A stretch of 64,000 bases of DNA from Subtercola frigoramans (GTDB taxonomy: Bacteria; Actinomycetota; Actinomycetes; Actinomycetales; Microbacteriaceae). Made by a program: the position numbers and the translations under genes. The stretch spans positions 620,001-684,000 of the forward strand of contig NZ_JAFBBU010000001.1 in NCBI RefSeq assembly GCF_016907385.1, written 5' to 3'. Under the pieces are notes generated by a model. It was not told the origin of the DNA. It saw nothing but the letters and a program-made list of their open reading frames with translations, and did no database searches. Within the stretch, counting starts at the first letter, position 1. Every line of letters starts with the position of its first letter. This document shows, piece after piece, positions 18,430 to 35,806 of the stretch.

Positions 18430-19398
18430 GTGAACTCCGACAGCCGCTCCGGGAAGCCCAGAGGGTCCGGTAAGCCCAGAGGTTCTGGGGCGCCGAGCGG
18501 TTCCGGGAAGTCCAGCGGCGGCGGCACAGCGAAACGCCGCGGCGCAGCTGGGTCGCAGAAGCCGCGCGGCAGGCGGGCAGGGGGACGCACGCAGTCGAGC
18601 CGACGGAAGCATGGCATCCATCGCCGTGGGTGGCTGATCGCCGCCTCGGTTTCGGGTTCTGTCGTCGTGTTGCTCGTGTTCGGAGTGGCTGCGGCGGGCC
18701 CTCTGGGCGACGCTGTACGCCAGGCTGTGACTGAGGCCCAGGCGGGTCAGGGTGACCGGCAGACCGTCGTCGTACCCCCGGCGTCGATCGCGGTGGCCCA
18801 GCTGGGCAGCACTCCGGGTGCGCTGCCGGGTGTTGCGGGGCGCGTCGACCAAGCGTGGGCTACGCGCGTCGCGACGGACACGAACATCTCCTTGCGGGCC
18901 ATCCAGGCGTATACGGGCGTCGCGGTGGCCAAACAGCAGGAGGACCCGGGGTGTCACCTCGGCTGGAATACGCTCGCCGCGATCGGTTCGGTCGAGTCGG
19001 GCAACGGAACCTACGCAGACAGCTCGGTCGGGGCTGACGGCGCTGTCAGCCCACCCATCTACGGCATCGCGCTCGATGGCAACGGGGTGACCGCCATCGC
19101 CGACACCGATGGCGGGTCGATCGACGGCGACGCGACGTTCGACCGGGCCGTCGGGCCGATGCAACTGATTCCCGAGGCGTGGCGCAACTGGGGTACCGAC
19201 GCGAACGGCGACGGCGTGGCCGACCCGCAGAACATCGACGACGCTGTGCTCGCCACGGCCAACTACCTCTGCCACGCCGGGGGCGACCTGGGTACCGAGG
19301 CAGGCTGGAAGAAAGGTGTCGCGGCCTATAACGACGCGACCTCCTATGCCCTCAAGGTCTCGCAGGCGGCGAACCGCTTCGCCGCTGCCGCTGGCTGA
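18430..19398 (+). CDS. membrane-anchored lytic transglycosylase-like protein
   Basis: A 322-aa protein. Residues 1-60 are a low-complexity, basic Gly/Ser/Pro/Arg cytoplasmic segment with GSGKPRG-type repeats; residues 66-90 form one transmembrane helix ([20 protein letters not shown]). The outer domain has an SLT-type lysozyme fold: [17 protein letters not shown] holds the catalytic Glu, [16 protein letters not shown] is the second conserved block, and a [10 protein letters not shown] loop could bind calcium. It likely cleaves peptidoglycan glycan strands with 1,6-anhydro product formation. No neighbour clearly shares its job. Confidence 0.82.
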
Positions 19399-19422
19399 GG
19401 AGGGAGCGTGTCGCGAGAAGGC

Positions 19423-20439
19423 TCAACCAGCTGGTGGCGCCGTCGACGTTCGCACGATGAGCTCGACGGGCAACGGGATGTTCGTGGGCAGCGGGTCCCG
19501 TCGGCCGGGGTGAAGGCGGTCCATCAGCATCTCGACGGCCTGCTCGCCCTGACGGCGCGGAAACTGGGCCATGGTCGTCAGGCCGAAGAACTCGGAGTGC
19601 TCGTGGCCGTCGATGCCGATCACCGATACGTCACGCGGCACCGAGAGTCCTAGGTCGCGGGCCGCGAGGATCGAACCGATCGCCATCTCGTCTGAGGCAG
19701 CGAAGATCGCGGTCGGCCGGTTGGGAGGGTCCACGAGCAGTTCGCGCGCGGCTTCGTATCCACCCCGAATCGTGAAGTCGGCTGGCCGAAAGAGCGGGGG
19801 GTCGGGCTGCACGCCGGCGAGCCGAAGAGCGTCTTCGTAGCCGGCCCTGCGGTTGGTGGGCAGGTGGAAGTCGAGTTCGAAGCGCGAGGCGCCGCCGATC
19901 ATCCCGATGCGGGTGTGTCCGAGGCCGAGCAGGTGTTCGGTCGCGAGCATGGCTACGGCCACGTCGTCGACACTGAGCGTCTGCACGCCCTTGAGTGGGC
20001 CGCCGATGCCGACGATCGGCTTGTGCAGGTCGAGCAGGCTCTGGAGCTCGCTCTCGTTGAGTTCGATGGTGAGGGCGAGAACGGCGTCGACGCGTTTTCG
20101 CAGCAGGAAGTGCTCGAAGACGCTCGTGCGCTCGTCGTCTCCGCCGCTCAGGCCGTACAGGGTGAGATCGTAGCCGTTGCGAAGGAGCGCGGCCCCTGCC
20201 CCCTCGAGCACCGAGGAGTAGAACCAGCGGCTCAGGAACGGTACGACCACGCCGACATTCTTCGTTCGGCCGCTGGCGAGGCTCGACGCCGACGACGAGA
20301 CGACGTAGCCGAGTTCCCGTGCCGCTTCGTGCACCCGGACCCGAGTCGACGGGGAGACGTGCCCATTGCCGCTCAGCGCGCGGGAAACGGTCGCCGTTGA
20401 CACGCCGGCGAGCTTGGCGACGGCTTCGATTCCGGGCAT
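19423..20439 (-). CDS. LacI family transcriptional regulator
   Basis: A 338-aa regulator. The N-terminal helix-turn-helix is GIEAVAKLAGVSTATVSRAL with the hinge region ASSLASGRTKN; the rest is a periplasmic-binding-protein-like sugar sensor (VGVVVPFLSRWFYSSVLEG, AIFAASDEMAIGSILAARDL, DVSVIGIDGHEHSEFFGLTT). ATG 20439 is preceded by AAGGA on the coding strand, and the N terminus then matches LacI proteins. Members repress sugar genes until the inducer binds. The nearest sugar genes lie across tRNA-Tyr inside the island at 20733-31100, but the regulator is outside it, so a link is only possible, not shown. Confidence 0.88.
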   Translation of the reverse strand: MPGIEAVAKLAGVSTATVSRALSGNGHVSPSTRVRVHEAARELGYVVSSSASSLASGRTKNVGVVVPFLSRWFYSSVLEGAGAALLRNGYDLTLYGLSGGDDERTSVFEHFLLRKRVDAVLALTIELNESELQSLLDLHKPIVGIGGPLKGVQTLSVDDVAVAMLATEHLLGLGHTRIGMIGGASRFELDFHLPTNRRAGYEDALRLAGVQPDPPLFRPADFTIRGGYEAARELLVDPPNRPTAIFAASDEMAIGSILAARDLGLSVPRDVSVIGIDGHEHSEFFGLTTMAQFPRRQGEQAVEMLMDRLHPGRRDPLPTNIPLPVELIVRTSTAPPAG

Positions 20440-20634
20440 GGCGCGTCCTTGCTGAGACCTGCACGACAGAGTGCAACGAATTGATGACTCCGAGTTTAGA
20501 GGGTGTCGTGCAAGCGTGTACACACCGCACTTCTCACGCCTGCTGCTCGTGTCGATTTCGCCAGAGCGGCCCCAGTGAGTATTCTTGTGCGAGCGCCTTC
20601 GGTTGTGTTGTTCGAACGTGGTCGGGTGCGCCTC

Positions 20635-20719
20635 GGCAAGTTACCCTAGCGGCCAAAGGGATCTGACTGTAAATCAGACGGCTGAGCCTTCGGGGGTTCG
20701 AATCCCTCACTTGCCACCA
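20635..20719 (+). tRNA. tRNA-Tyr (GTA)
   Basis: An 85-base type II tRNA with a long variable arm. Acceptor arms GGCAAGT and ACTTGCC pair perfectly; the anticodon loop CTGTAAA reads GTA; the T arm is GGGGGTTCGAATCCCTC; ACCA is encoded at 20716-20719. Its 3' terminator carries the left copy of the island repeat. Confidence 0.95.
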
Positions 20720-20722
20720 ATG

Positions 20723-20757
20723 AAAGCCTTGAAATCACTGCGATTTCAAGGCTTTTT
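20723..20757 (+). terminator. terminator of tRNA-Tyr
   Basis: A perfect 14-base stem (AAAGCCTTGAAATC at 20723-20736 with its complement at 20742-20755) around loop ACTGC is followed by a short T-run. Confidence 0.88.
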
Positions 20758-20766
20758 GGTTTGAAT
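20733..20766 (+). repeat. left 34-bp direct repeat of the island (attL candidate)
   Basis: These 34 bases, beginning AATCACTGCGATTTCAAGGC and ending TTTGGTTTGAAT, are repeated without mismatch at 31067-31100. The copy covers the distal half of the tRNA-Tyr terminator. Confidence 0.85.
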
Positions 20767-21056
20767 GGGGGTATAGGGGTTATCGGCCAGAACGGGGTGG
20801 ATGGACGCGAGCCACTAGGACTCCTTGCGCTAGTTGCTCTCCTTGGTGTCGATGAGTCTCAGGGGTTCGACTAGTCAGATTCTCTAGACGGGGACGAGAA
20901 ACGTGGGACGTGCCGGCCGAGCCGGACGGCCGTCGTCGCTAACGTGAAGTCGCACATGCGGCAGGCCTCGTTGACCGCGCCAGAAGGAGACGGCTGCGCC
21001 ACAAAAGAGTCTCCGAGTAGACCAGAGCGCAGGATTCATCTGACTGGATCGATCTC
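20767..21056. other. gene-free left arm of the island
   Basis: No convincing coding sequence in either strand. The only reading frames are short and have no recognisable domain. An integrase gene would be expected here beside attL if the element were intact; none is present, and I see no clear remnant. Confidence 0.5.
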
Positions 21057-21085
21057 TTGACGATGAAAGTTATCACTGGTAAATT
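21057..21085 (+). promoter_or_regulatory. promoter and candidate operator for the ABC transporter operon
   Basis: TTGACG (21057-21062), a 17-base spacer and TAAATT (21080-21085) form a good sigma-70-type promoter. The partly palindromic TTATCACTGGTAA (21070-21082) lies in the spacer and overlaps the -10, where a repressor would block it. Similar motifs lie at 25083 and 26928. Confidence 0.5.
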
Positions 21086-21161
21086 TTTGACAGCTTCCAC
21101 TGTGGGGAGCGAAGGCGAGAATTTCGAACTCGCTGATTCTGATGTCAGAGAGGACACGAGA

Positions 21162-22493
21162 ATGGTTAAGAGAAATGCGAGGCGAGGGGCGGTCGTCGCG
21201 GTCCTGCTGGGGGCGCTCGCGCTGTCGGCATGTGCGTCGTCCGGAGGAAGCTCCTCCGATCCCGAAAGCTGCACCCCGGCGCCGAAAGGCGAGAAGGTGA
21301 CGCTGAGCTTGTCTACCTGGATTCCAAACTTTCAGGAGACGGTCGACTTGTGGAACAGCGAGCATCCAGATATCCAGGTTGATTACACCGAAGTCACCCA
21401 AGGGAACCAAGGTACGTACCAGACTTATCTCAATCAGATCAAGGCGGGTAAGACGGCCGACCTCGGGTACTTCGACTACGACGTGCTGCCGACATTCCGG
21501 ATCGCTGACGGTCTCCGGAACCTCTACAAATGCGCCGGTGTGGCCGACGCACAAGACAAGTTCATCAAATCGGCGTGGACGGCAACCACCTTCGGACAAG
21601 ACAAAAGCATCTATGGGCTCGGACTGGACTTCACTCCCGAGGGCCTCTTCTATCGCGCCGATCTTTTCAAACAGGCGGGAATTCCCGTCCCTACCACATG
21701 GGATGAGTACTACCAGGCTGCCAAAGCAGTGAGGGCGACGGGCGGCTACATTGCCAACCTCCCGAGTTGGGGCACCTTCTGGCCGACCAACTGGATGCAG
21801 GCTGGTAAGAAGTGGTTCGAGCTCGACGGTGACACCTGGAAGGTGAACATCGCGACGGATGAGAACAAGCAGATTGCCGATCGCCTTCAGCAATTGGTTG
21901 ATGAAAAGCTGGTCACGACCTACCCGCTCTTTCAAGATGAGTACTCGAAGGCTCTCAACGACGGCGTCATCTGGAGTCAGCTCGGCGGGCCATGGGGATT
22001 CCGCCTGATTCCCAGCTCTGCAGCCGACACCGCGGGTAATTGGTCACTCACCAAGATGCCCGTGATCGACGGATCAACCAGCATCGCCTCATGGGGTGGT
22101 GCGGCGATGGGCGTCTTCAAGAATTCAGCGCACCCGTACGAGGCAGCAGAATTCGCCCTGTGGGCCACGACTGATCCCAAAGCGCTCGCTCTGAATTCGT
22201 CGCGGGGGGGCATCTTCCCCCCGATCAAGGACGTTGTGAGCCAGGTTCCAGAAATGCAGGCCACAAACCCCTTCTTCGGCGACCAGGCTGTCTTCAAGGA
22301 GATGAACTCCTGGGCTGAAGATGTGAATCCCGAGTGGCTCTGGGGCCCGACGATGGTGCAGGTGAATGCAGACCTCGAATCAGAGATGGCTAAAGCGCTT
22401 TCAGGGCAGCAGACGATCTTCGATGCGTTGAAGGTGGTCCAAGGCAACACCGTCGATGCAATCAAATCGCAGGGACTCTCGGTCACGCAGTAG
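21162..22493 (+). CDS. ABC sugar transporter, substrate-binding lipoprotein
   Basis: A 443-aa family 1 extracellular solute-binding protein. The signal ends in a lipobox (ALALSAC, then ASSGG), giving a lipid-anchored receptor. The body has STWIPNFQETVDLWNSEHPD near the start and TPEGLFYRADLFKQAGIPVP, a segment typical of oligosaccharide binders (MalE/UgpB type). ATG 21162 is preceded by GAGAGGA; an upstream start at 21057 would lie in the promoter. It feeds the two permeases encoded downstream. The ligand cannot be deduced, but the neighbouring enzymes suggest a glycoside or uncommon disaccharide. Confidence 0.9.
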   Translation: MVKRNARRGAVVAVLLGALALSACASSGGSSSDPESCTPAPKGEKVTLSLSTWIPNFQETVDLWNSEHPDIQVDYTEVTQGNQGTYQTYLNQIKAGKTADLGYFDYDVLPTFRIADGLRNLYKCAGVADAQDKFIKSAWTATTFGQDKSIYGLGLDFTPEGLFYRADLFKQAGIPVPTTWDEYYQAAKAVRATGGYIANLPSWGTFWPTNWMQAGKKWFELDGDTWKVNIATDENKQIADRLQQLVDEKLVTTYPLFQDEYSKALNDGVIWSQLGGPWGFRLIPSSAADTAGNWSLTKMPVIDGSTSIASWGGAAMGVFKNSAHPYEAAEFALWATTDPKALALNSSRGGIFPPIKDVVSQVPEMQATNPFFGDQAVFKEMNSWAEDVNPEWLWGPTMVQVNADLESEMAKALSGQQTIFDALKVVQGNTVDAIKSQGLSVTQ

Positions 22494-22497
22494 GCCA

Positions 22498-22543
22498 ACT
22501 GGGTCTGGTGCACACATGGCGCCAACGTTGCACCAGACCCAGT
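22498..22543 (+). promoter_or_regulatory. intercistronic stem-loop between receptor and permease genes
   Basis: A perfect 15-base stem (ACTGGGTCTGGTGCA at 22498-22512 and its complement at 22529-22543) with a 16-base loop follows the receptor stop. There is no T-run. Such stems after binding-protein genes often stabilise the upstream message and reduce read-through, giving an excess of receptor over permease. Confidence 0.7.
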
Positions 22544-22568
22544 CCATTCGCAAAGGAGCACACAAAGC

Positions 22569-23501
22569 ATGACGGTCAACCTTCCGGCGGGTCATCTCGA
22601 ACGATCCGCGCCAACGTCAGGCCGGCGACGGATGTCATTCACGTCTCACACCGGCGCGATCCTCGCGCTCGTCGCCCCGTTCTTGATTCTGCTCACTCTG
22701 TTCTATCTCGTGCCGATCGGCTACGCCCTCGTGCAGTCGTTCTTCAAGCTCGAACGAAGTTCCGCGTTCGGATCGCCGCGCGAGGTCTTCGCCGGATTCG
22801 AGCAGTATGTTCACGTACTCGAGAACGCTGCGTTCTGGGGGAGTCTGGGTCGAGTCGGGGTGTTGCTGGTGACGATGGTACCCGTGATGATCCTGCTTGG
22901 CCTCCTGTTCGCTTTGCTCATCGATTCGACACTGGTAAAGGGACGACGTTTCTTTCGCCTGGCGTTCTTCGCCCCCTATGCAGTTCCCGGTGTGATCGCC
23001 GCCATCATGTGGGGCTTCTTCTACGCGCCGACGCTCTCGCCGTTGCCGGGAGTCGCGGAATCGCTCAATCTCCTCGACTCCCGAGGAATAATGATTGCCC
23101 TGGCGAACATTATCGTGTGGACGGTATCTGGCTTCAACATGCTGATCATGTATTCGGCGCTGCAAGCGGTTCCTCAGGAGCTGTATGAGGCCGCTCGCAT
23201 GGATGGCGCCGGCAACGTGCGGATCGCAGTGCTCGTCAAGGTGCCACTGATCATGCCATCGATCATCATGACCGGGGTGCTGTCGATCATCGGGACCCTC
23301 CAGCTCTTCAACGAGCCGACGGTTCTCAAGACGCTGTCGAAGGCGGTAGGCCTGGACTTCACGCCAAACATGCTGGTCTTCAACACAGCTTCGATCCCGA
23401 ACTACAACCTCGCTGCCGCCACCTCTGTAGTCCTGGCACTTCTCACGGCTGCGCTGTCGTTCGTCTTCCTCCGAATCACCCAGAAGAGAGCATTTGAATG
23501 A
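22569..23501 (+). CDS. ABC sugar transporter permease (MalF-type)
   Basis: A 310-aa inner-membrane permease with six predicted helices. The cytoplasmic EAA loop that contacts the ATPase is LYEAARMDGAGNVRIAVLVK. The first helix is AILALVAPFLILLTLFYLVP. It would form a heterodimer with the next gene product, whose ATG overlaps this stop codon (ATGA). ATG 22569 has AAAGGAG upstream. No ATP-binding subunit is encoded in the cluster; in actinobacteria a shared MsiK-type ATPase commonly energises such CUT1 transporters. Confidence 0.9.
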   Translation: MTVNLPAGHLERSAPTSGRRRMSFTSHTGAILALVAPFLILLTLFYLVPIGYALVQSFFKLERSSAFGSPREVFAGFEQYVHVLENAAFWGSLGRVGVLLVTMVPVMILLGLLFALLIDSTLVKGRRFFRLAFFAPYAVPGVIAAIMWGFFYAPTLSPLPGVAESLNLLDSRGIMIALANIIVWTVSGFNMLIMYSALQAVPQELYEAARMDGAGNVRIAVLVKVPLIMPSIIMTGVLSIIGTLQLFNEPTVLKTLSKAVGLDFTPNMLVFNTASIPNYNLAAATSVVLALLTAALSFVFLRITQKRAFE

Positions 23502-24391
23502 AATCCACCACGCTAGGCGCCCCCGTGGAGGGGCGAGGGCGCATCGCAAAGGATCGACCCATCAGTGTCATCGCAGCCACGGGCTTCATGATTGCGTTCG
23601 CCGTGTACTTCCTGACTCCCTTGTGGTGGCTGATCGTCGCAGCCTCGAAAACAAGGGCCGACATGGTCTCCACGTTCGGTCTGTGGTTTTCGACCGATAG
23701 CTTCGCTCTCTTCGACAACGTCGCGGCGCTATTCACGGAGAACGACGGTGCATTCGGACGGTGGATGCTCAACAGCTTCCTCTATGCCGGTGTCGGTGGG
23801 GCTGTGGGCACACTGATTGCCGCGATGATGGGATACGCATTGGCGAAATACCAATTCCGGGCTCGCAACGCGCTGTTCAACATCATCCTGGCCGCCATTC
23901 TCATCCCGGTGACCGCCCTTGCCCTGCCGTTGTTCCTGGTGTTCGGCGCCGTCAGCCTCACGGATACGTTCTGGGCGGTCTTCCTACCCAGCCTCGTCAG
24001 TCCTTTCGGCGTCTATCTCGGTAGGATCTATGCCGCAGCCGCTGTGCCTGACGAATTGCTCGAGGCATCTCGGCTCGACGGCTCGGGTGAACTGCGAACG
24101 TTCTTCAGCATGTCGCTTCGCCTCATGGCGCCAGCATTGGTGACGATCTTCCTGTTCCAGTTCACCCAGATCTGGAACAACTTCTTCCTGCCCCTGGTCA
24201 TGCTTCAGGATGACGCGCTCTATCCGCTGAATCTCGGTCTCTTCAGTTGGAACTCGCAGGTGTATCTGGCGCCCGATCTGCGCCTCTTGGTGATAGTCGG
24301 ATCACTTGTGGCTATCATTCCGGTGATCATCGCCTTCTTGCTTCTTCAGCGTTACTGGCGGACCGGGCTGGCTGCCGGAAGCATCAAGTGA
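23498..24391 (+). CDS. ABC sugar transporter permease (MalG-type)
   Basis: A 297-aa partner permease with six predicted helices. The EAA motif is LLEASRLDGSGELRTFFSMS, and the C-terminal LLLQRYWRTGLAAGSIK tail is characteristic of CUT1 MalG-like subunits. Its start overlaps the end of the MalF-type gene by four bases, indicating coupled translation. It ends this operon; the TetR gene converges from the other side 31 bases later. Confidence 0.9.
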   Translation: MKSTTLGAPVEGRGRIAKDRPISVIAATGFMIAFAVYFLTPLWWLIVAASKTRADMVSTFGLWFSTDSFALFDNVAALFTENDGAFGRWMLNSFLYAGVGGAVGTLIAAMMGYALAKYQFRARNALFNIILAAILIPVTALALPLFLVFGAVSLTDTFWAVFLPSLVSPFGVYLGRIYAAAAVPDELLEASRLDGSGELRTFFSMSLRLMAPALVTIFLFQFTQIWNNFFLPLVMLQDDALYPLNLGLFSWNSQVYLAPDLRLLVIVGSLVAIIPVIIAFLLLQRYWRTGLAAGSIK

Positions 24392-24422
24392 GTTGTGTCG
24401 CGGTCGCCCCGCGGCGATACGG

Positions 24423-25040
24423 TCAAGAGTTCGAGTGGGCCGGCGGTTGACGTAGCGGGCTCTGCGTACCCGAAACGAACAGCCCGTCGATTGCCCCTTC
24501 GAGATCGGCTGGAGCATCGATTCGCGGATCGATCAGAGACTGAAGCTGCAGGCCATCTGCTAGAGCGACCAGCCATCGAGCGGTGCGATCTGGATCCAGC
24601 TCGGACTTGATCAGTCCCTGGCGTTGGCCTTCCCGCACTGCGTCGGAGAGCATCTTCGACGTCGTTGCGAACCGTTCCCTGAAGTAGTCGTGGGCAGGAT
24701 GATCTGGGTCGACCGCCTCGGCCGCGAAGGCGATATACAACTGAACGATGCCGCGTATCGTGAGGTTTTGGCGAATAGCCGTCGCATACTGGTCGAGAGC
24801 GTCAGTCGTGCTCTTCGCCAAGTCTCGATTGTCTTGGCTCCACTGTTCTACTACCTCTCGCAACAGATCCTCTCGTGTTCCGAAGTAGTAGATGATGTGG
24901 GCCGGTTCGATGCCCAATGCACGACCGATCGCCCGGAGTGTAGTGCCGTTGTATCCCTTCCGGGCGATAACCTCCATCGCCGTCCTCAAGATCTCCTGAC
25001 GGCGAGCGGCACCCTTCGAGTAGGTGCCGCGTGTGACCAT
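24423..25040 (-). CDS. TetR family transcriptional regulator
   Basis: A 205-aa regulator. The N-terminal DNA-binding domain is RRQEILRTAMEVIARKGYNG followed by TTLRAIGRALGIEPAHIIYY; the helix-turn-helix sits at about residues 33-55. The C-terminal ligand domain (IVQLYIAFAAEAVDPDHPAH) resembles BetI-type regulators. It is divergent from the first TIM-barrel gene, and the shared 90-base interval holds a 16-base palindrome (25083-25098), a likely operator. As the only regulator inside the island it is the natural candidate to control all three promoter intervals. Confidence 0.88.
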   Translation of the reverse strand: MVTRGTYSKGAARRQEILRTAMEVIARKGYNGTTLRAIGRALGIEPAHIIYYFGTREDLLREVVEQWSQDNRDLAKSTTDALDQYATAIRQNLTIRGIVQLYIAFAAEAVDPDHPAHDYFRERFATTSKMLSDAVREGQRQGLIKSELDPDRTARWLVALADGLQLQSLIDPRIDAPADLEGAIDGLFVSGTQSPLRQPPAHSNS

Positions 25041-25082
25041 GATCCTCAGTCTAAAGGGATTGACGCCCGTCTTGAGTAAATA

Positions 25083-25098
25083 TTAACCAATGGGTAAA
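25083..25098. promoter_or_regulatory. candidate operator between the TetR and TIM-barrel genes
   Basis: TTAACCAATGGGTAAA is a palindrome of the form TTnACCnATnGGTnAA. It overlaps a possible -10 (TATTAA, 25081-25086) downstream of TTGACG at 25060. The site is related to those at 21070 and 26928. Confidence 0.5.
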
Positions 25099-25130
25099 AT
25101 CGTGGAAACGTACTTACAAGGAGGTAGCAG

Positions 25131-26054
25131 ATGGGCGCCATCGCCATTTCGAGCTTTAGTCTGTTCACGCAACTCGGGCCGCTCCATTTCGAGACTCGAG
25201 GCGACGATGGTGTGGTGCGCCCGAGTGCCATGGATCTGCCGAGCAGAATCGATCTCGAGCAGTTCATCGCTCTCGTTCCGCAGGAGACGGGACTTACTGC
25301 TGTTGAGTTGTGCCAGGTGCAGTTCGGAGAAACCACTCCGCAGAGACTGGAACGCCTCAAGGCGGCGTTTGCGACTGCTGGTGTCCGTTTGCTCACCGTG
25401 CCGATCGATGTGGGCGACATCTCGACGCCCGATGCGGCCCATCGGGACGAGGACGTCCTTCGCATCATCGACTGGCTTGACATTGCCCAGAGCCTCGGCG
25501 CACGATTCGCGCGGGTCCGCATCGGATCGCCGATCGAGGGTGCTGATACCGAGGGATCGGGACTCGTCCGGGCGCTCGGAACGCTGGCCGACGAGGCGGC
25601 GCGTCGTCATCTTGAGCTTCTCGTCGAGAATCACGGTGGGCTGAGTTCGGATCCGGGATTTCTCCTGAGCCTGCAGAAGCAGATCGGCGAGGATCGCATG
25701 GGCATCTTGCTCGACCTCGGCAATTTCGAACCGGTCAGCACTGTCTCGATCGGCCGTATCACGGGAAATCCGGTTGATGAGAGCGGTCTCGATGTCGAGC
25801 ACATCTACAAGAAGATCGAAATGCTCGCGCCACATGCCCGGCTTGTGCACGCCAAGGCGATAGACGCCGGCGCCGACGGTGAGCCGCTCCTCGATCTCGA
25901 TCGCTCATTGGCGATCGTTGCCCAAGCTGGCTATGACGGTGACATCAGCATCGAGTGGGAGGGCCTGCTCGGCGATCCGTGGGAGCAAGTGCGACGGGTG
26001 GTCGAGCGTATTCGCAGGGCGTTTCCAGCGATGGCCGACGTCAAAGCGTCTTGA
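25131..26054 (+). CDS. sugar phosphate isomerase/epimerase-like TIM barrel (first copy)
   Basis: A 307-aa AP-endonuclease-2/xylose-isomerase-like TIM barrel. Metal-ligand positions of the fold are visible: ELLVENHGGL (Glu), GILLDLGNFEP (Asp), RLVHAKAID (His) and GDISIEWEGLLGD (C-terminal Glu). Related proteins isomerise or epimerise sugars and inositol derivatives, and some act on 3-keto-glycosides. A strong AAGGAGG precedes ATG 25131. The 3' end overlaps the convergent DUF1080 gene by 14 bases. Exact substrate unknown. Confidence 0.85.
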   Translation: MGAIAISSFSLFTQLGPLHFETRGDDGVVRPSAMDLPSRIDLEQFIALVPQETGLTAVELCQVQFGETTPQRLERLKAAFATAGVRLLTVPIDVGDISTPDAAHRDEDVLRIIDWLDIAQSLGARFARVRIGSPIEGADTEGSGLVRALGTLADEAARRHLELLVENHGGLSSDPGFLLSLQKQIGEDRMGILLDLGNFEPVSTVSIGRITGNPVDESGLDVEHIYKKIEMLAPHARLVHAKAIDAGADGEPLLDLDRSLAIVAQAGYDGDISIEWEGLLGDPWEQVRRVVERIRRAFPAMADVKAS

Positions 26055-26898
26055 TGCGGATGTTGCGCCAACGGCAGGCGGCGCCGTGACCCCAGCGCTC
26101 GCCGCCGATACCCAAGTCGCTGTCGTGCACTTCGAGCGCTATGTGACCGCGGTCACCGAGGGCGTCGAGCACCCGAGCTGCGTCGTAGTCCGGTGAGTCC
26201 AGTGTCGCGGTGTCGACCTCGGCGATCTTGAGGCCATTCACCCAGGTGGTGATCACGGGTAGGGCTCCGATCGCTCGGATCCGGATCTCGTTCCAGTCCG
26301 CCCACTTCCACACGCGAAGGAAATCATTGACATCGGCGGCATAACGGAGCCGCGCGATCTTCTCCGGAGTGACCGGTTCAAGGCTTGTGGACGGATCATC
26401 GGCCTCAAGGCCCAGGATCTCGCCCGAGGCATCGCGGCGACCACGCACGGCGAACGGTACCGCGGAGAAACTTGCAAGCCCGTTGCCGAAGAACCCCCCG
26501 ATTCCGCCCGATTCCCGGTGGTCGACAAGGACTTGGAACCCCTCCCAAGTGTTGCGCCGTCTACGGATCATGACCCCGGTGTCGGCCGGCCAATCCGGCT
26601 TGGCTTCAACTACAAGTTCGAAATCGCCATAACTCTCGTCGCTGACCAGGTAGCCCCCATAGCCGCTGCCGGGCGCATCCTGACGCCCGACGATCGCACC
26701 GTCCTCGACGGTCCAAACGGCGGGGTGCTTCTCGGGTTCGACAGGGCGGCGAGCCCCTTGGGCGGCGAGCATGTCGAGAACGGCAGGGCCACCGGGGTAG
26801 AGATCCCCATAGATCCGGGGCGCGGTGTGCCACCCCGCGAGAGTGCTGCCATCGAACAGTGGGCGGAAGCCCTCGTCATCGAATTCTGTGAGCGTCAT
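26041..26898 (-). CDS. DUF1080 (3-keto-disaccharide hydrolase-like) protein
   Basis: A 285-aa protein with the DUF1080 concanavalin-like fold: FRPLFDGSTLAGWH at the start, WTVEDGAIVGRQD, YGDFELVVEAKPDWPADTGV and MIRRRRNTWEGFQVLVDHRE, ending GHIALEVHDSDLGIGG. Family members cleave the glycosidic bond of 3-keto-glycosides formed by a 3-dehydrogenase. No signal peptide is seen, so it should act in the cytoplasm after uptake. GAGGAG stands before ATG 26898. It is divergent from the second TIM-barrel gene, with an operator-like motif between, and convergent with the first. Confidence 0.82.
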   Translation of the reverse strand: MTLTEFDDEGFRPLFDGSTLAGWHTAPRIYGDLYPGGPAVLDMLAAQGARRPVEPEKHPAVWTVEDGAIVGRQDAPGSGYGGYLVSDESYGDFELVVEAKPDWPADTGVMIRRRRNTWEGFQVLVDHRESGGIGGFFGNGLASFSAVPFAVRGRRDASGEILGLEADDPSTSLEPVTPEKIARLRYAADVNDFLRVWKWADWNEIRIRAIGALPVITTWVNGLKIAEVDTATLDSPDYDAARVLDALGDRGHIALEVHDSDLGIGGERWGHGAACRWRNIRIKTL

Positions 26899-26927
26899 TG
26901 CTTTCTCCTCATGAGCGTCCTTTGATA

Positions 26928-26942
26928 TTATCCAACGGTAAA
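26928..26942. promoter_or_regulatory. candidate operator between the DUF1080 and second TIM-barrel genes
   Basis: TTATCCAACGGTAAA resembles the motifs at 21070 and 25083 (TTAW, then C and A bases, then GGTAA) and lies in the shared divergent promoter interval. A TAATAT -10-like element for the leftward gene overlaps it. Confidence 0.45.
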
Positions 26943-27021
26943 AAACTCATGGCGTCAAATATTGAGTTGTGATAAATTTTGTCTGCAGCCACGACGGCTG
27001 CAGATTTGGAGACAGCCAACG

Positions 27022-27915
27022 ATGGCGAGAACTCAGAACCTTGGCATTAATCCACTTCCCTGGATTCTGGTGGACATGTCCTACAATCTCGATCGCGATG
27101 TTCTCACGCGGGCGATGAAGGAGCTTGGCGGCATCGGATTCGACCACATCACGGTTGAGATTCCAGATGGATTGACGCCGCGACAATATGGTGCCTTGCT
27201 CAGCGACAACGGGTTCAGCCCTGCGCCCGGCTACTTTTCTGGCCGCTGGTCTGACCACGACTCTCACGCCGGGCTTGTCGAAGCACTCAAGGTGCATGCG
27301 GCAGCGCACGCAGAACTCGGCCTCGACCGTGCCTTCATCGCGCACGACCTCGTACCGGAGCGGATCGCAAGACCGGCCGTCGGTGTGGCAGCGGATCCCT
27401 TCCGTTTGGCGGTCATCGCGGATGGTCTGGCGCTTGCGGCCGAGGCGGGCGTCGCAGAAGGTGTGCGGTACGCACTCCATCCACACGTCGGTTCGTGGAT
27501 CGAGACCGAGGAGGAGACCCGTTCAGTACTCGATACAACTGCCGGGTCCGACCTCTTCTTCGGCCCCGACACCGGGCATCTCTATTGGGCCGGCGCCGAC
27601 CCTGCAGCTCTCATGCGCTCGTACTCGGACCGTATCATCGCTGTGCATCTCAAAGACGTCAATATGTCGGCTCGCGATACTGCGATCGCGAAGGGCGACG
27701 AATATCGAGCGGCGACGGTGGTCCGCCACGTCTGGACCGAACCCGGGCAGGGCGCGATCGATTTCGAGGAGGTGTTCAAGAGCCTTCCCGCCGCTTTCGA
27801 CGGCTGGTTCGTGATCGAGGTTGATGTGCCTGATGCGGCTTCGGCTGTTGAAAGCTCCGCCATCTCCCTGGCTTTCGTCAACCAGCATCCCTATTTTGCG
27901 CCGGTGACGGCATGA
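27022..27915 (+). CDS. sugar phosphate isomerase/epimerase-like TIM barrel (second copy)
   Basis: A 297-aa TIM barrel of the IolE/xylose-isomerase-like superfamily, clearly different in sequence from the copy at 25131. Metal-site candidates are RYALHPHVGSWIE (His), FFGPDTGHLYWAG (Asp and His), IIAVHLKDVN (His) and GWFVIEVDVPD (Glu). The opening GINPLPWILVDMSYNLDR has the look of IolE-type proteins. ATG 27022 is chosen over a start at 26962, which would add 20 residues lacking similarity. It leads a tightly coupled operon; its stop overlaps the next start (ATGA). Confidence 0.83.
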   Translation: MARTQNLGINPLPWILVDMSYNLDRDVLTRAMKELGGIGFDHITVEIPDGLTPRQYGALLSDNGFSPAPGYFSGRWSDHDSHAGLVEALKVHAAAHAELGLDRAFIAHDLVPERIARPAVGVAADPFRLAVIADGLALAAEAGVAEGVRYALHPHVGSWIETEEETRSVLDTTAGSDLFFGPDTGHLYWAGADPAALMRSYSDRIIAVHLKDVNMSARDTAIAKGDEYRAATVVRHVWTEPGQGAIDFEEVFKSLPAAFDGWFVIEVDVPDAASAVESSAISLAFVNQHPYFAPVTA

Positions 27916-28973
27916 CCGACCGTATCGGCGTCGGCATAGTCGGAGCCGGGCCCGTAGTGCAGGCGATCCACCTGCCGACATTGGCGAGATTGACCAACCG
28001 CTTCGAGGTGCGGGTGATCCTCGACATCGATGAGAACGTCGCAACGGACGTCGCAGATCGAGTGTCGGCTCGAGCTACGACGGACTTCCAGGATCTGCTC
28101 GATGACCCCTCTGTGGAAGTCGTCGCCATCTGCACACCGGCATTCCTGCACGCTGAACAAGTGATAGCTGCATTGGAGTCAAACAAACGTGCCGTCTTCT
28201 GTGAGAAGCCGCTCGCACGTACACTTGCCGAGGCCGCGCGCATCGCAGACGCTGTCGAACGCACCGGGGTCCCTCTGGTCGTCGGTGCCATGCATACGTT
28301 CGACCCGGGCTGGCTCGCCGTAGGTGACGTGGTCGAGAAACTGGCCGCGACTGCGCATACCGTGCGCTCGAGCATCGCTCTGCCGTTCAACAACCGTTTC
28401 GAGGATTGGGCGACCGAAATCGTTCAAAGGCCTCCTCGACCAGAGGGCGGCACTCCCGACGCAGAGGCGCTCGCCTCGCTGATGTCGCTGGGTGTGCTCG
28501 AGCTCGCCATTCACGATCTTCCTGTGGTGCGGCGCTTTCTGCCCGATGCCGACGAAGTAACAGTGTCGGCCGCCGTGGGGCTCGAACCATTCGGCTATGC
28601 GATAACAGCAGTGGCAGGCGATCGGATGATCGAACTTTTCGGTCTCATCAGCGCCCAATGGCAGCCGAAATGGGAGTTCGAAGCCATCAGCGACGACACG
28701 ATGCTGCATATCGAGTTCACTCCGTCGTTCGTGCAGGCCGGATCTGCTGTCGCGACTGTCACGATGGGCGGAGTGAGCACCACCTACGGCAGTTATGGAC
28801 ACAATGGGTACGAAGGCGAGTGGCGAGCCATCGGCGATATCGTAGAGGGGAACCTCGGCTTGATGCCCGACATCGCCGACTTGATCGACGACCTCACGTT
28901 TGCGATCAGGCTCGCGGAGGGAGCGGCCGACGTTGTCCGCTCGGCAGCACTTTCGGCGGAGGCCTCCGCATGA
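27912..28973 (+). CDS. Gfo/Idh/MocA family oxidoreductase (first copy)
   Basis: A 353-aa NAD(P)-dependent dehydrogenase. The Rossmann motif is IGVGIVGAGPVVQAIHLPTL; the family lysine lies in VFCEKPLARTLAEA (EKP). The C-terminal alpha/beta domain follows, with LELAIHDLPVVRRF supplying the usual catalytic histidine region. Such enzymes oxidise C3 of hexosides or inositols. It overlaps both neighbours by four bases (ATGA at each end), so stoichiometric co-production is likely. Confidence 0.88.
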   Translation: MTDRIGVGIVGAGPVVQAIHLPTLARLTNRFEVRVILDIDENVATDVADRVSARATTDFQDLLDDPSVEVVAICTPAFLHAEQVIAALESNKRAVFCEKPLARTLAEAARIADAVERTGVPLVVGAMHTFDPGWLAVGDVVEKLAATAHTVRSSIALPFNNRFEDWATEIVQRPPRPEGGTPDAEALASLMSLGVLELAIHDLPVVRRFLPDADEVTVSAAVGLEPFGYAITAVAGDRMIELFGLISAQWQPKWEFEAISDDTMLHIEFTPSFVQAGSAVATVTMGGVSTTYGSYGHNGYEGEWRAIGDIVEGNLGLMPDIADLIDDLTFAIRLAEGAADVVRSAALSAEASA

Positions 28974-29779
28974 AGGCACAACTGTCAGTTGCTTCGCGAC
29001 CGGAGACTGCTGAGCTCACCCGTGCCGTTGTCGCATCATTGCCTCAGTCGTTCAGCCTCGCGGCAGGCGACGCAACCCTCGCGGATGTCACTGTCATCGG
29101 CGGCGCCAGAGGGTGGGCATCGACGGCATCCCATCTCATCGCGGCCGGCGCAGAGCGGGTGATCGTCATTGATCCGCGTGCCGACGATCCGTCGGCGATC
29201 GGCGGCGTCGCCGCTCTCGCAGATTCGGTCGGCACCCGCGTTGTGCTCAGCGAGCCATTCGCTGGCAACGCTGGGCTGGCGGCTGCGGCCTCCTCCTTCA
29301 GCGGCTCCGCGTTGATCTCCATCGTGGGACTTGTGACCGGAGACCTCGATGAGAACCTTCTCACGCATCTTCGCCTTGCTCGACTGGCCGGTCTCGCGGA
29401 TGTGTCGATCGGCGACACGAGGACGACCGAGCGTGCGCGTCTGTCGACGGCGACTGCCAGGCTCGGTGATTCATCGACAATCGTGAGATCGCTTCTCGCG
29501 AGATCGCTCGCGGCTCCTGCGAGCCATACAATCCGCGGATATGCAGGTGATCGAATGATCGTCGCGACCGTATTCGATGGCGATACGGCGCGGCCCGCAC
29601 TCGTGACGGTGACGAGCGACGAGGGCGCAATGCTGCTACCTACTGTGTACGAGAGTGCACATCGAACGGCCTTTCGATCACTTCTCAGTGAAGCTGTATC
29701 AACGGAGGTAGTGCGGTCTTTCGCAATCGACGTTGAGACAGCGAGCTCCGTGACAGGCGATCGGCGGGCCAGACGGTGA
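28970..29779 (+). CDS. unrecognised 269-aa protein in the oxidoreductase operon
   Basis: I do not recognise this protein. It starts at the ATG overlapping the previous stop and ends in a four-base overlap with the next Gfo/Idh/MocA gene, so it is firmly part of the operon. Residues 25-60 (TLADVTVIGGARGWASTASH, then LIAAGAERVIVIDPRADD) look like a beta-alpha-beta nucleotide-binding unit with a GGARG loop in place of GxGxxG. There is no EKP motif and no signal peptide. The second half contains TIRGYAGDRMIVATVFDGD. It could be a degenerate oxidoreductase-like subunit or partner of one of the flanking dehydrogenases; that is a guess. Confidence 0.6.
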   Translation: MKAQLSVASRPETAELTRAVVASLPQSFSLAAGDATLADVTVIGGARGWASTASHLIAAGAERVIVIDPRADDPSAIGGVAALADSVGTRVVLSEPFAGNAGLAAAASSFSGSALISIVGLVTGDLDENLLTHLRLARLAGLADVSIGDTRTTERARLSTATARLGDSSTIVRSLLARSLAAPASHTIRGYAGDRMIVATVFDGDTARPALVTVTSDEGAMLLPTVYESAHRTAFRSLLSEAVSTEVVRSFAIDVETASSVTGDRRARR

Positions 29780-30897
29780 CGGCGGGTAAACTCAGGGTAG
29801 TCATTGCCGGGACCGGCATGATCGCCGAACTTCATCGTCGGGCCGCCGTGCTTTCGGGCGCAGTCGTTATCGGTGTGCTCGGGTCCCGACCAGAGCGTTC
29901 ACACGAGGTTGCGGAACGCTGGGGCGTGGAACACGCGTTCGGTGATCTCGTCGAGGTGATTGCAGCACGCCCAGACGTGGTGCACATCTGCACGCCGAAT
30001 AGCTTTCATTTTGCGTATGCGCTCGAACTTCTGGATGCCGGTATCCATGTCGTATGTGAGAAACCGCTCGGGTTGACGGCCGCCGAGTCCATGGAGATGG
30101 ACGCGAAGGCAGCGGCGTGCGGACTCGTCGCAACCGTTCCGTTCGTGTACCGCTTCCACCCTATGGTTCGCGAAATCCGCGAGCGCCGCCTCGCCGGGGA
30201 GTTAGGCGAAATCGCGCTCATCCACGGCAGTTACCTGCAGGATTGGATGCTCGCCCCTAACGTCGGGAGCTGGCGGGTGGATCCGATCGCAGGCGGGGCG
30301 TCCCGCGCGTTCGCAGACATCGGATCCCACTGGTGTGACCTCGTGGAATGGGTGAGTGGCGAACGCTTCTCCGCGGTCTCCTCAGCGGTGTCGATCCTTT
30401 ACCCTGAACGACCGTCTGAATCGGCCACAGCGTTCACTGGCGGAGGGTCGGGCGAGTTGGGAGTGGTCACCACCGAAGACATAGCGCTAGCTCAATTCCG
30501 CACGGAATCCGGCGTGCTTGCCTCTGTCACCGTCTCGCAGGTTTCCGCCGGCCGGAAGAATCGGCTGTGGTTCGAACTTGACGGCACCCGGCAGAGTGCC
30601 GTCTTCGACCAAGAGAATCCCGAGTCGGCGTGGATGGGCGCTCAAATTCAGTCCTCAACAATCGTCCGGGATCCCTCAGTGAACCGTCCCGAAGCAAGGC
30701 GCCTTTCGAGTCTTCCTGCCGGGCATCCCCAGGGCTACGCACATTGTTTCGAAGCGTTCGTCGACGATACCTACGCCGCCGTACGCGGGGACGTGCGTGA
30801 CGGGCTGCCTACCTTCGCCGATGGAGCCCGTGCTGCCCGCATTGTCGAGGCGGTACTAGGGTCTGCACGAGATGCCGCGTGGAAGGTCATCGCATGA
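29776..30897 (+). CDS. Gfo/Idh/MocA family oxidoreductase (second copy)
   Basis: A 373-aa NAD(P)-dependent dehydrogenase with Rossmann motif VVIAGTGMIAELHRRAAVLS, VVCEKPLGLTAAES (catalytic Lys in EKP) and the substrate-domain signature RAFADIGSHWCDLVEWVSGE, where GSHW.D carries the catalytic histidine and Asp. This is the form found in many sugar and glucoside 3-dehydrogenases. A GTG start overlaps the preceding stop. The two Gfo/Idh/MocA copies share little beyond family motifs, so they probably act on different substrates or in opposite directions. A 30-codon frame beginning at 30894 overlaps its stop but has no domain. Confidence 0.88.
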   Translation: MTAGKLRVVIAGTGMIAELHRRAAVLSGAVVIGVLGSRPERSHEVAERWGVEHAFGDLVEVIAARPDVVHICTPNSFHFAYALELLDAGIHVVCEKPLGLTAAESMEMDAKAAACGLVATVPFVYRFHPMVREIRERRLAGELGEIALIHGSYLQDWMLAPNVGSWRVDPIAGGASRAFADIGSHWCDLVEWVSGERFSAVSSAVSILYPERPSESATAFTGGGSGELGVVTTEDIALAQFRTESGVLASVTVSQVSAGRKNRLWFELDGTRQSAVFDQENPESAWMGAQIQSSTIVRDPSVNRPEARRLSSLPAGHPQGYAHCFEAFVDDTYAAVRGDVRDGLPTFADGARAARIVEAVLGSARDAAWKVIA

Positions 30898-30949
30898 CGC
30901 TCAGGGTCACCAAAGCGGGTGATCCATGGGACCAAGGAATTGACGATTG

Positions 30950-31066
30950 CGGAGCGGAAGACCTCGACCCGCCGTCGCCGTCGTGACGGGAGAAGGAGGG
31001 CTTGAGTCGAGCTCATGCCCTCCTTCTCGGCTCTCGCGGGGCGAAGGCCGTTGTGAACGACATCGG
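30950..31066 (+). pseudogene. SDR-family dehydrogenase remnant cut by the right repeat
   Basis: Two frames joined by one extra base (near 31004) spell the N terminus of a short-chain dehydrogenase: AVAVVTGEGGL (30971-31003), then SRAHALLLGSRGAKAVVNDI (31005-31064) and a final glycine. That matches the TGxxxGLG cofactor motif and the VVNDIG strand of NAD-binding SDRs. Homology ends exactly where the 34-bp repeat starts at 31067. The gene is both frameshifted and truncated. Confidence 0.65.
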
Positions 31067-31100
31067 AATCACTGCGATTTCAAGGCTTTTTGGTTTGAAT
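31067..31100 (+). repeat. right 34-bp direct repeat of the island (attR candidate)
   Basis: Identical to 20733-20766 over 34 bases. It keeps only the distal half of the tRNA-Tyr terminator stem, so it is a duplicated target piece and not a working terminator. Confidence 0.85.
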
Positions 31101-31245
31101 CGGGGCCCAGGCCCCACAACAGCCCCGCACCAGGTTCAGATCGCCGCGTGCGAATCCAGCCACCGATTCGCCGGGCCGGGCGTTCGCCCCTATCCTTTTC
31201 AGGCGGGCGGATGCTCGTTCACCTGGTTCTTGCACCTGGAGCGTG

Positions 31246-33480
31246 ATGGCAGATCGAACTCCCGTGACCCCGGTGCGACTCGGCTGGGTGGGCCGCCTGG
31301 GTGCGGCGTCGGCCCGCCGCCCGTGGATCGCGATGACCGTGTGGATCCTGCTGCTCGGTATCGCTCTGGCAGCGGCACTCGGTGCAACGGGGAACCAGAC
31401 GCTCTTCCAGCTGCTGGTGACTGGTGCGCCCGCCGCCGAGGGGGAGAGCAGCCGGGCCACGGCGATCCTCGAGGGTGGAGACCCGCGTGACCAACTGAGT
31501 CTCACGGTGCATGGAGTGTCGCCCACCGATGCCCAGGCGATCCGCCTCTCGACGGGGATCTCCAGCACGCTCGCCGGGCTGCCCGACATAACAGTTGTCA
31601 ACCCGCTTGTCGTTCCCCCACTCGCTGATGGGAGCGCGAATCCGGCGGCGTTGCCCCTGCTGGCCGACGACGGCAACGGATTCCTCCTTACGGCAACGAT
31701 CTCCGGTGTCGACGGCCACGCTCCCGACAAAGCCGTCCTGAGCACTGTCGAGGCCGCGCTGAATGCCGGCGCGATCCAGTACCGCGCGGCGTTTCCGGGC
31801 GCGACCGCCGAGGTCGGCGGCTCGCCGCTGCTTGTCGAATCGCTCACGTCGATCTCTGAGAGCGATCTCGCACGAGGTGAGACGGTCGCTCTGCCCATCG
31901 CACTCATCGTCATGCTTGTCGTCTTCGGTGGATTCATCGCAGCAGGGATTCCTCTCGCAGGTGCGGTGGCAGCCATCGGCGGTGCGCTCGGAGTGCTCTT
32001 CTGCTTCACTTTCTTCACCGACATCAATACGAGCGTCGTGAATGTCGTCACTGCAGTGGGCCTGGGCCTCTCGATCGACTACGGATTGTTGATCGTGAGC
32101 CGCTTCCGTGAAGAGTCCCGGAAGCGCCGGCTGGTGTCGAGGGACGAGCGATTGGCTGCGGTCGGCCTCGCGGTGAATTCGGCCGGACGTACGGTCACCT
32201 TCTCAGGCACCGTCTTTGCAATTGCGGCTCTCGGCCTTCTGCTCTTCGATCCACCGATCGTGCGAGCGATCGGCATCGGCGCTCTGGCAGTCACCATGAT
32301 CGCGGTCGCATCTGCGCTCACGCTCATCCCGGCGCTGATCGGATTGAGTGGCGAACGCCTCATTCGCCCGGGTGTGCTCACACGTATCCCCGGTGTCGGC
32401 CCACTGCTCAGCCGATTCGGTGACGTGGCGCCCCCTGAGGGGTTCTTCTCCCACCTGACCAGGCGTGTGCAACGCCATCCCGCGCTCATCACGCTGGCCA
32501 CTGTGGTTGTGCTGCTGGTGATGGGCAGCCCCCTTCTGACGCTCCAGCTCGCGAACACGAGTGTCGATGCCATTCCGAAGTCGTCGACCCAGTACGACTT
32601 CGTGCAGACGGTGAACGGGTTCTTCCCGCAGGCGACGAGCCCGCGCGTGCTTCTCGTGACCGAGACCGAGGCCGACGCGGCCAACTGGGCCGCGCAGGTG
32701 AAATCCCTCGACCGCGTGGCGGCCGTCGGTGTGCCGACCGCCTCGGGTGACGCCTGGAGTGTCCGGGTTGCGGTCGACCAGCCCACCGACGGCGTCAGGG
32801 TCGTGCACGAGATCCGGGATGCCCGGCCGGCCTTCCCCGCCTGGGTCACCGGTATCGACGCCGACACCGCCGACCTGGCCGGGTCGCTGCTCAGTGGGGC
32901 ACCGCGAGCAGCGCTGCTCATCGCGGTGGGAACGATGGTCGTGTTGTTTCTGATGACCGGTTCGCTGATCATCCCGCTGAAGGCACTCGTCGCCAGTGCG
33001 CTCTCACTCGGAGCCTCGATCGGAGTGCTGGTCTGGGGCTTCCAGCAGGGCAACTTCGCTGGTCTGATGGGCTTCAACGCCGCCGACGTGCACGGGGTGG
33101 ATGCCCTTGTACTTCTGCTGACCTTCGTGTTCGGTTTTGGGCTGGCAATGGACTACGAGATGTTCATCCTCTCGCGGGTGACCGAGCTGGTCGAGGCTGG
33201 TGTTCCGGCAAAGGAGGCGATTGCGCTCGGACTGCAGCGCTCCGGTCGCATCATCACCTCAGCTGCGCTCATCATCATCGTGGTGTTCGCAGGCTTCGCG
33301 ACCGGTGACCTGATGCTCATCAAACAACTCGGGGTGGCGCTCGCCGTCGCTGTTCTGCTCGACGCGACGCTGGTGCGCTGCCTGCTGGTGCCTGCATTCA
33401 TGACGTGGTCGTATCGCTTCATGTGGTGGGCGCCGCGCTGGCTCAAGCCGGTGCACGCGAGGTTCGCGCTGCGCGACTGA
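31246..33480 (+). CDS. MMPL family transporter
   Basis: A 744-aa RND-superfamily membrane protein of the MmpL type. After helix 1 (WIAMTVWILLLGIALAAALG) comes a large outer loop, then a five-helix bundle with VGLGLSIDYGLLIVSRFREE, which contains the DY proton-relay motif; the second half repeats the plan (a second outer loop, then FVFGFGLAMDYEMFILSRV with the matching DY pair). It would export a lipid or hydrophobic compound by proton motive force. ATG 31246 is favoured by GGAG five bases upstream; GTG 31243 is possible. It begins about 145 bases after the island's right end and appears to belong to the core chromosome. Confidence 0.88.
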   Translation: MADRTPVTPVRLGWVGRLGAASARRPWIAMTVWILLLGIALAAALGATGNQTLFQLLVTGAPAAEGESSRATAILEGGDPRDQLSLTVHGVSPTDAQAIRLSTGISSTLAGLPDITVVNPLVVPPLADGSANPAALPLLADDGNGFLLTATISGVDGHAPDKAVLSTVEAALNAGAIQYRAAFPGATAEVGGSPLLVESLTSISESDLARGETVALPIALIVMLVVFGGFIAAGIPLAGAVAAIGGALGVLFCFTFFTDINTSVVNVVTAVGLGLSIDYGLLIVSRFREESRKRRLVSRDERLAAVGLAVNSAGRTVTFSGTVFAIAALGLLLFDPPIVRAIGIGALAVTMIAVASALTLIPALIGLSGERLIRPGVLTRIPGVGPLLSRFGDVAPPEGFFSHLTRRVQRHPALITLATVVVLLVMGSPLLTLQLANTSVDAIPKSSTQYDFVQTVNGFFPQATSPRVLLVTETEADAANWAAQVKSLDRVAAVGVPTASGDAWSVRVAVDQPTDGVRVVHEIRDARPAFPAWVTGIDADTADLAGSLLSGAPRAALLIAVGTMVVLFLMTGSLIIPLKALVASALSLGASIGVLVWGFQQGNFAGLMGFNAADVHGVDALVLLLTFVFGFGLAMDYEMFILSRVTELVEAGVPAKEAIALGLQRSGRIITSAALIIIVVFAGFATGDLMLIKQLGVALAVAVLLDATLVRCLLVPAFMTWSYRFMWWAPRWLKPVHARFALRD

Positions 33481-33513
33481 GCCGGCACGACCATGCTCCA
33501 GTCGAGGCCCCAC

Positions 33514-33535
33514 CATGCACGGCCACGGGTGCATG
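33514..33535. terminator. small hairpin between convergent genes
   Basis: CATGCAC and GTGCATG (7 bp) flank an eight-base loop in the 61-base gap between the MMPL and DUF4214 genes. No T-run, so terminator function is tentative. Confidence 0.35.
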
Positions 33536-33541
33536 CCCTGG

Positions 33542-35116: not shown

Positions 35117-35250
35117 AGTACTCCTTGTGCGTTCATGGGGTAGCTTCAGAACGACGAGCGAGTTCGGTACTGGCTGGGCGACGTTTGTTGCAGGGGTGGT
35201 CGGTGGTGCTCTTCATTGGCTTCAGGGATCGTTACGAAGGGGGAGTCGGA

Positions 35251-35748: not shown

Positions 35749-35794
35749 CAGGGCCCCGTCTCCCGAGCGAATCCGCCCCGCAGCGACCAGCGGG

Positions 35795-35800: not shown

Positions 35801-35806
35801 TCGGGC

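Follow-up and report, generated by a model that had tools for sequence, protein, structure and literature searches.

Among the described systems closest to the element considered here are the cis-mobilizable elements (CIMEs), as defined in PMC5704250, whose cargo lies between repeats resembling the left and right attachment (att) sites, attL and attR, with no genes for integration or transfer, and the tDNA islands mapped by the Islander method, in which insertion at a tRNA gene is recognised by a restored target and a displaced fragment, the principle being that one att copy restores part of the target (PMC4383910). Also related are a 50K island of Riemerella with a RAP44-type integrase, which is reported to sit downstream of a tRNA gene, flanked by 19-bp direct repeats (PMC9745183), and the additive flexible islands of Methylophilaceae, which hold metabolic cargo between short repeats at a tRNA-Lys locus (PMC10872708). 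The locus analysed here lies in a 64-kb stretch of the Subtercola frigoramans genome (the window, positions 620001-684000 of a single 3.68-Mb contig; the genome is called G000 below), in which ten open reading frames (ORFs), likely for sugar-derivative catabolism, are enclosed by two perfect 34-bp repeats immediately downstream of a tRNA-Tyr gene. The island is of a known kind, with an unusual target position in the terminator of the tRNA gene, a position that is represented by one instance.

The likeness to each of these systems is partial. With a CIME the island shares the att-like repeats on either side of its cargo and the lack of recognised genes for integration or transfer. The insertion at a tRNA gene is of the kind that Islander maps, but no integrase, which the Islander filter requires (PMC4383910), was found in the island, and its duplicated segment is the terminator instead of a tRNA fragment; we expect that the Islander rules would miss it. 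The Riemerella island, which has its own integrase and excises by itself (PMC9745183), may already exemplify an att site beyond the tRNA gene. In Methylophilaceae the final 20 bp of the tRNA gene form the repeat, which recurs, whereas here there is a single cassette with a terminator repeat (PMC10872708). No paper on the S. frigoramans island or on att sites in terminator loops was among the matches listed from an open-access literature subset.

The evidence begins with the repeats themselves. As the initial annotation, made from the sequence letters, had reported, the two copies agree at 34/34 positions (Table 1). No other exact direct repeat in the window exceeds 17 bp, and about 3e-11 pairs of 34-bp repeats are expected there by chance, which together rule out a chance origin. 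Beyond the 34 bp the likeness of the copies extends to 38/39 bp, a weak hint of a pre-existing copy of the incoming element's site (attP). The left copy was correctly recognised as the distal part of the tRNA-Tyr terminator: it begins with the final 4 nt of the 5' arm, continues through the loop and the 3' arm, and ends 9 nt beyond the T-tract, and the complete hairpin has a computed folding energy of -22.7 kcal/mol. The terminator core ATCACTGCGAT is common to G000, to its congener G007 and to the displaced terminator of another congener, G001. The repeat starts 14 nt past the tRNA end (20719 to 20733) and lies entirely outside the tRNA gene, so that the duplicated segment does not come from the anticodon loop, the T loop or the T/acceptor junction, as it would in a tDNA island made by a tyrosine recombinase. 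This differs from the standard site at a tRNA 3' end that had been assumed, and also from the repeats of congener elements at the same gene, described below, which lie inside the tRNA. The right copy, which lacks nearly all of the 5' arm, cannot form a terminator.

Table 1. Features of the tRNA-Tyr locus, the island and its right flank, in window coordinates
Feature	Position	Strand	Basis or remark
tRNA-Tyr (GTA), integration hotspot	20635..20719	+	ARAGORN; Rfam tRNA 20635-20716
tRNA-Tyr intrinsic terminator	20723..20757	+	5' arm 20723-20736, loop ACTGC 20737-20741, then 3' arm and T-tract; sequence and fold
Left 34-bp copy (attL-like)	20733..20766	+	Exact repeat; single copy at the G004 empty site
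Non-coding left end	20767..21161	.	Assumes that the first gene starts at ATG 21162; its frame is open from TTG 21057
Sugar ABC substrate-binding protein (SBP_bac_1)	21162..22493	+	Family match
Sugar ABC permease	22569..23501	+	Pfam/NCBIfam
Sugar ABC permease	23498..24391	+	Pfam/NCBIfam
TetR-family regulator	24423..25040	-	Family match
Xylose-isomerase-like TIM barrel (AP_endonuc_2)	25131..26054	+	Family match
3-keto-disaccharide hydrolase family (PF06439, formerly DUF1080)	26041..26898	-	Family match
IolE/xylose-isomerase-like TIM barrel	27022..27915	+	Pfam/NCBIfam and structure match
Gfo/Idh/MocA oxidoreductase (first)	27912..28973	+	Family match
269-aa protein, no Pfam or NCBIfam family	28970..29779	+	Next to Gfo gene in part of related clusters
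Gfo/Idh/MocA oxidoreductase (second, Gfo2)	29776..30897	+	Family match
SDR (short-chain dehydrogenase/reductase) gene remnant (N-terminus), frameshifted, about 30 codons	30973..31066	+	Nucleotide alignment to G225 gene
Inverted repeat, 12-bp arms, within frameshifted part of SDR remnant	30990..31028	.	
Right 34-bp copy (attR-like)	31067..31100	+	Only last 4 nt of terminator 5' arm present
MMPL-family gene, host flank collinear with G004, outside island	31243..33480	+	Pfam and alignment

That the repeats bound an insertion is established by comparison with a set of 12 genomes of the genus (G000 and 11 congeners), one of which, the congeneric species G004, holds the empty site with a single 34-mer copy that the initial annotation had proposed looking for. 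The 10,300 bp between the window copies are absent from G004, which is 93% identical to the window on the left (19413-20772) and 89% on the right (31067-36000, where 36000 is the end of the query), the two matches overlapping in one repeat copy. When the flanks of the window are joined at the repeat, they align to G004 over 3,734 columns with 90.2% identity and 6 gap columns, none of them within 133 bp to the left or 140 bp to the right of the junction; the repeat itself is identical at 34/34 positions, the adjoining 140 bp at only 110/140. A search for the 34-mer that tolerated 3 mismatches returned two places in G000, one in G004 and none in the 10 remaining genomes. Neither arrangement that had been named in advance as speaking against the idea was seen, since blastn found island-like DNA at the tRNA-Tyr loci of 0/11 congeners and the 34-mer is present twice in none of the 11. 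The gene taken for an MMPL protein on the right is confirmed as such by Pfam, and the nearest named relatives of a LacI protein encoded in the flanks come from Subtercola. The locus therefore has what is expected of a tDNA island in this respect, an insertion placed precisely beside the tRNA gene and a relative in which the site is empty, and the insertion is younger than the split of G000 and G004 unless G004 has lost the island.

The composition of the island is foreign, with a GC content of 0.605 against 0.664 and 0.638 in the flanks and a GC content at third codon positions of 0.65-0.76 in the ten cargo genes against 0.79-0.85 in seven host genes; together with the empty site in G004 this bears out the original proposal of a precise insertion at tRNA-Tyr with duplication of the target. 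The same proposal had allowed for an old island, and here the right copy speaks otherwise. Because it cannot form a terminator it would be expected to drift, and it shows 0/34 changes beside a flank that is 21% divergent from G004. Had the island entered at the time of the G000-G004 split, a copy diverging at half the rate of the flank would have stayed unchanged at all 34 positions with a probability of about 2%, the rate being a rough estimate from one 140-bp stretch. Since the right copy is unchanged though free to drift, the island probably arrived long after the two species had separated.

The tRNA-Tyr gene is an integration hotspot in this genus. Integrase-bearing elements occupy it in 3/11 congeners (G001, G005 and G010), on the same downstream side as the island, and in each a Phage_integrase protein adjoins the tRNA. 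The element of G010 is about 14 kb long with a 53-bp repeat and that of G005 about 15 kb with a 51-bp repeat, both repeats starting at the anticodon loop and covering the rest of the tRNA; from their translations these two elements (loci L033 and L034, respectively) appear to be prophage-like. The G001 element, 15.5 kb long, has an exact repeat of 16 bp where the tRNA ends and seems to encode FtsK-like and replication-type proteins. These elements differ from the island in that an integrase adjoins the tRNA, that their repeats, 16-53 bp long, fall within the tRNA, and that their genes read as phage- or plasmid-type; they have no DNA in common with it. A search of 31 loci from relatives found 0 repeats spanning the terminator within 2-20 kb downstream, a survey in which L181 and L183 had no tRNA match, the scripted tRNA matching was out of register (for G005 and G010 it fell on the distal fragment, and the repeats given above come from separate comparisons) and larger elements would be missed; shorter repeats at the tRNA were found in L032 (16 bp), L176 (16 bp) and L179 (14 bp). 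Among the insertions seen at tRNA-Tyr, only the S. frigoramans island has its repeat in the terminator. In G001 an open frame of 198 aa with a phage integrase catalytic domain (L032, 1673-2266, + strand) lies just beyond the distal repeat, which suggests the remains of a second tRNA-Tyr element. In L176 (G018) the 16-bp repeat of the tRNA 3' end is found again about 500 bp downstream, possibly as a remnant of an insertion.

The reading that we favour, and hold to be probable, is that the island was inserted by a tyrosine recombinase with an att site in the terminator, and that the integrase has been lost or acts in trans, as for a CIME. A site-specific recombinase is the best fit because of the precise ends, the location and a repeat layout that restores the 3' half of the terminator; with its edges 4 nt ahead of the hairpin loop and slightly beyond the T-tract, the repeat has the layout of tDNA islands whose target is partly restored. 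Such a model also ranks first because few random breaks would be expected this close to a tRNA gene (50 bp beside each of 45 tRNA genes, an assumed number, make up 0.06% of the genome), and fewer still at the tRNA-Tyr gene that is used in 3/11 congeners. A circular molecule of 10.3 kb would have entered the chromosome at tRNA-Tyr by site-specific recombination, with strand exchange in the loop of the terminator hairpin; the hairpin is a natural inverted repeat, and a loop between inverted arms is a plausible core site for a tyrosine recombinase. The element would have brought its own loop, 3' arm and T-tract, so that the tRNA kept a working terminator. The integrase gene would since have been lost, most likely from the non-coding left end, which is on the side where the congener elements carry theirs; alternatively, the integrase of another element would have moved the island in trans, though we think loss more likely. 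What remains would be a CIME-like cargo island, a gene set between two matching att-type repeats.

Several observations weigh against this proposal. No integrase or relaxase was found among the ten ORFs with Pfam and NCBIfam (and PHROGs for eight of the ten), as the initial annotation had it, nor could an excisionase be recognised in the island. The left end, translated in six frames with X at stops, gave no meaningful Pfam match; its one match, to an unrelated subdomain at E=0.25, was set aside. Elsewhere in G000 there are seven matches to PF00589, none at tRNA-Tyr, and no att-like copy was found within 5-7 kb around these genes, the best 34-mer identity being 19/34. The insertion position is outside the three tRNA sub-sites of Islander (PMC4383910), and neither a 27-mer nor a 30-mer of the site has an exact match in the viral contigs of IMG/VR. 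A donor of another genus would hardly carry so lineage-specific a 34-mer (present in 2/12 genomes of the genus). The broken SDR gene at the right end would be an atypical neighbour of attP, and no arm-type repeats stood out at the inner ends, which share two 8-mers in each orientation, compared with 1.0 in shuffled sequences, and no 9-mer in either.

Two of the seven PF00589 proteins of G000 appear Xer-like from their sequences. Of the tyrosine-recombinase ORFs, one (L141, C1:2330001-2342000) is close to tRNA-Pro(ggg) and another (L145, C1:158001-170000) adjoins tRNA-Ser(tga), and G000 may carry other tRNA-targeted elements.

The main rival explanation, although an unlikely one, is capture by non-homologous end joining (NHEJ): a staggered break with 34-nt overhangs in the terminator, filled in to give the duplication, would have been joined by Ku and LigD to a linear foreign fragment whose end happened to lie inside an SDR gene, with no integrase at any time. 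Genes for Ku and the LigD polymerase are side by side in G000, with a second LigD polymerase match as well; they are present now, which does not imply that they were used. The end of the island fits a random fragment end, as the SDR gene breaks off precisely where the repeat begins. There, as had been noticed at the outset, the right copy terminates an SDR remnant, positions 30973-31066 aligning to a gene of another genus (G225) with 69/96 columns identical and two 1-nt gaps, in an alignment that stops exactly at the repeat; the product of the G225 gene is a short-chain dehydrogenase by its PF00106 match in Pfam. End joining also fits with the failure to find an integrase in the island, and it needs no donor with the lineage-specific 34-mer. 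It leaves unexplained why the break should fall within 50 bp of a tRNA gene that is used by elements in 3/11 congeners, and why the edges of the repeat should match the terminator loop and T-tract; nor would fill-in predict the 38/39 likeness beyond the 34 bp, though this argument is weak.

Slightly less credible is an entry driven by homology, either by recombination of the flanks with a strain of the same species in which the island was already at this site, or by a single homologous crossover of a circle that carried the 34-mer. Within the genus the 34-mer is confined to G000 and G004, and the last donor was probably a close relative. Such an entry leaves the island's origin to be explained in the donor strain instead, and 34 bp is short for homologous recombination.

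We consider it improbable that the island is ancestral and was lost from G004 by recombination between the repeats. Clean excision through 34-bp repeats is possible, but the tRNA-Tyr loci of the 11 congeners hold no similar DNA, the homologue of Gfo2 in G008 (49% identical) lies elsewhere and five congeners are without a match at E<=1e-60, and both the foreign composition and the lack of divergence in the right copy stand against such an age. Transposition of the DDE type with a long target-site duplication would account for direct repeats around the insert, but it is close to refuted, as no transposase family is found among the ten ORFs, no 9-mer is common to the inner ends in either orientation and hence there are no terminal inverted repeats, and 34 bp is far longer than is known for the target duplications of DDE elements.

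Returning to the proposed tyrosine-recombinase island, its assignment to the CIMEs is incomplete. Repeats are kept at both ends (34/34), their role as recombinase sites being putative, and Pfam and NCBIfam find no integration or conjugation genes among the ten ORFs. Descent from an integrative and conjugative or an integrative and mobilizable element, and mobilisation in cis, are only putative, and six-frame translation of the left end showed no recognisable remnant of such an element, while at the right end there is the SDR remnant. The locus is nonetheless a clean case, thanks to the empty site of a sister species, in which metabolic genes stand behind a tRNA gene with nothing recognised that is able to move them, and if terminators serve as att sites, searches keyed on tRNA fragments or on integrases overlook islands of this sort. 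A more far-reaching idea, which we regard as speculative and rather doubtful, is that tRNA terminator hairpins are a further att sub-site, at whose loop an integrase supplied in trans recombines, moving small cargo-only circles without mobility genes and rebuilding the terminator; if true, cassettes of this type would be missed by searches that demand both a tRNA fragment and an integrase.

The cargo is likely to serve the uptake and breakdown of 3-keto-glycosides, judging from the protein families that it encodes. In other bacteria, Gfo-type enzymes, TIM-barrel proteins of eliminase or hydratase type and PF06439 proteins act on 3-keto-glycosides (PMC10628242, PMC9007349), with a related case for C-glycosides (PMC8563793), and all three kinds are present here; no single described cluster is matched, however, and the sequences are distant, the IolE-like TIM barrel matching structure 8bvk, an eliminase of A. 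tumefaciens (PMC10628242), at E=9e-4. The cargo includes its own regulator, of the TetR family, as first described. Because no ATPase is among the ten cargo ORFs, the ABC importer would borrow one from elsewhere. The inverted repeat within the SDR remnant may act as terminator of the last gene of the island.

Parts of this arrangement recur in other genomes. Among 43 loci retrieved with the TIM-barrel alignment, clusters are partial only, and a relative of the first Gfo gene is followed by a relative of the 269-aa protein in 11/43. The latter relative stands beside a Gfo/Idh/MocA gene in 11/11 foreign loci, which were chosen by the 269-aa protein itself. At two loci, one of Sphingobium and one of Novosphingobium, the genes for the hydrolase and the TetR regulator run divergently from the TIM-barrel and Gfo genes. 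Gfo2 has matches in 112/299 family genomes at E<=1e-60, G000 included, with a best foreign identity of 61%; among the congeners, besides the homologue in G008 and the five listed without a match, five others, which may not have been sampled, are not among the matches. None of 12 Gfo2 neighbourhoods has the other island genes in order, although in L074 two permeases of 23-25% identity lie beside the Gfo gene. The 269-aa protein has matches in 10/396 genomes of the order, G000 included, the best foreign one by E-value being 30% identical and the highest identity among the matches listed 37%. The closest protein to the IolE-like TIM barrel among the protein-database matches listed is 68% identical, and the PF06439 protein reaches 77% identity in Nonomuraea loci. 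No close donor of the cargo emerged from these comparisons.

At the level of DNA, the right and left ends of the island have matches in 77 and 43, respectively, of the 299 family genomes (E<=0.01), almost all of them short pieces and, for the left end, short pieces only. The SDR match in G225 is the only informative one, and no near-identical donor for either end was found among these 299 genomes. Plasmid matches to the cargo comprise 47 records that are 60-80% identical and partial, with 0 in which one place covers 80%. A viral source was also considered and rejected, as two pattern scans of IMG/VR with a 27-mer and a 30-mer of the site gave 0 exact matches and a scan of viral contigs with the TIM-barrel alignment confirmed 0/37 candidate stretches. 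The tRNA region matches 27 phage and 65 plasmid records, which look like ordinary tRNA-Tyr similarity. Upstream of the tRNA gene, the gene at 18430-19398, which has a transglycosylase SLT domain, contains imperfect repeats with an 18-bp period in its 5' part (18442-18518).

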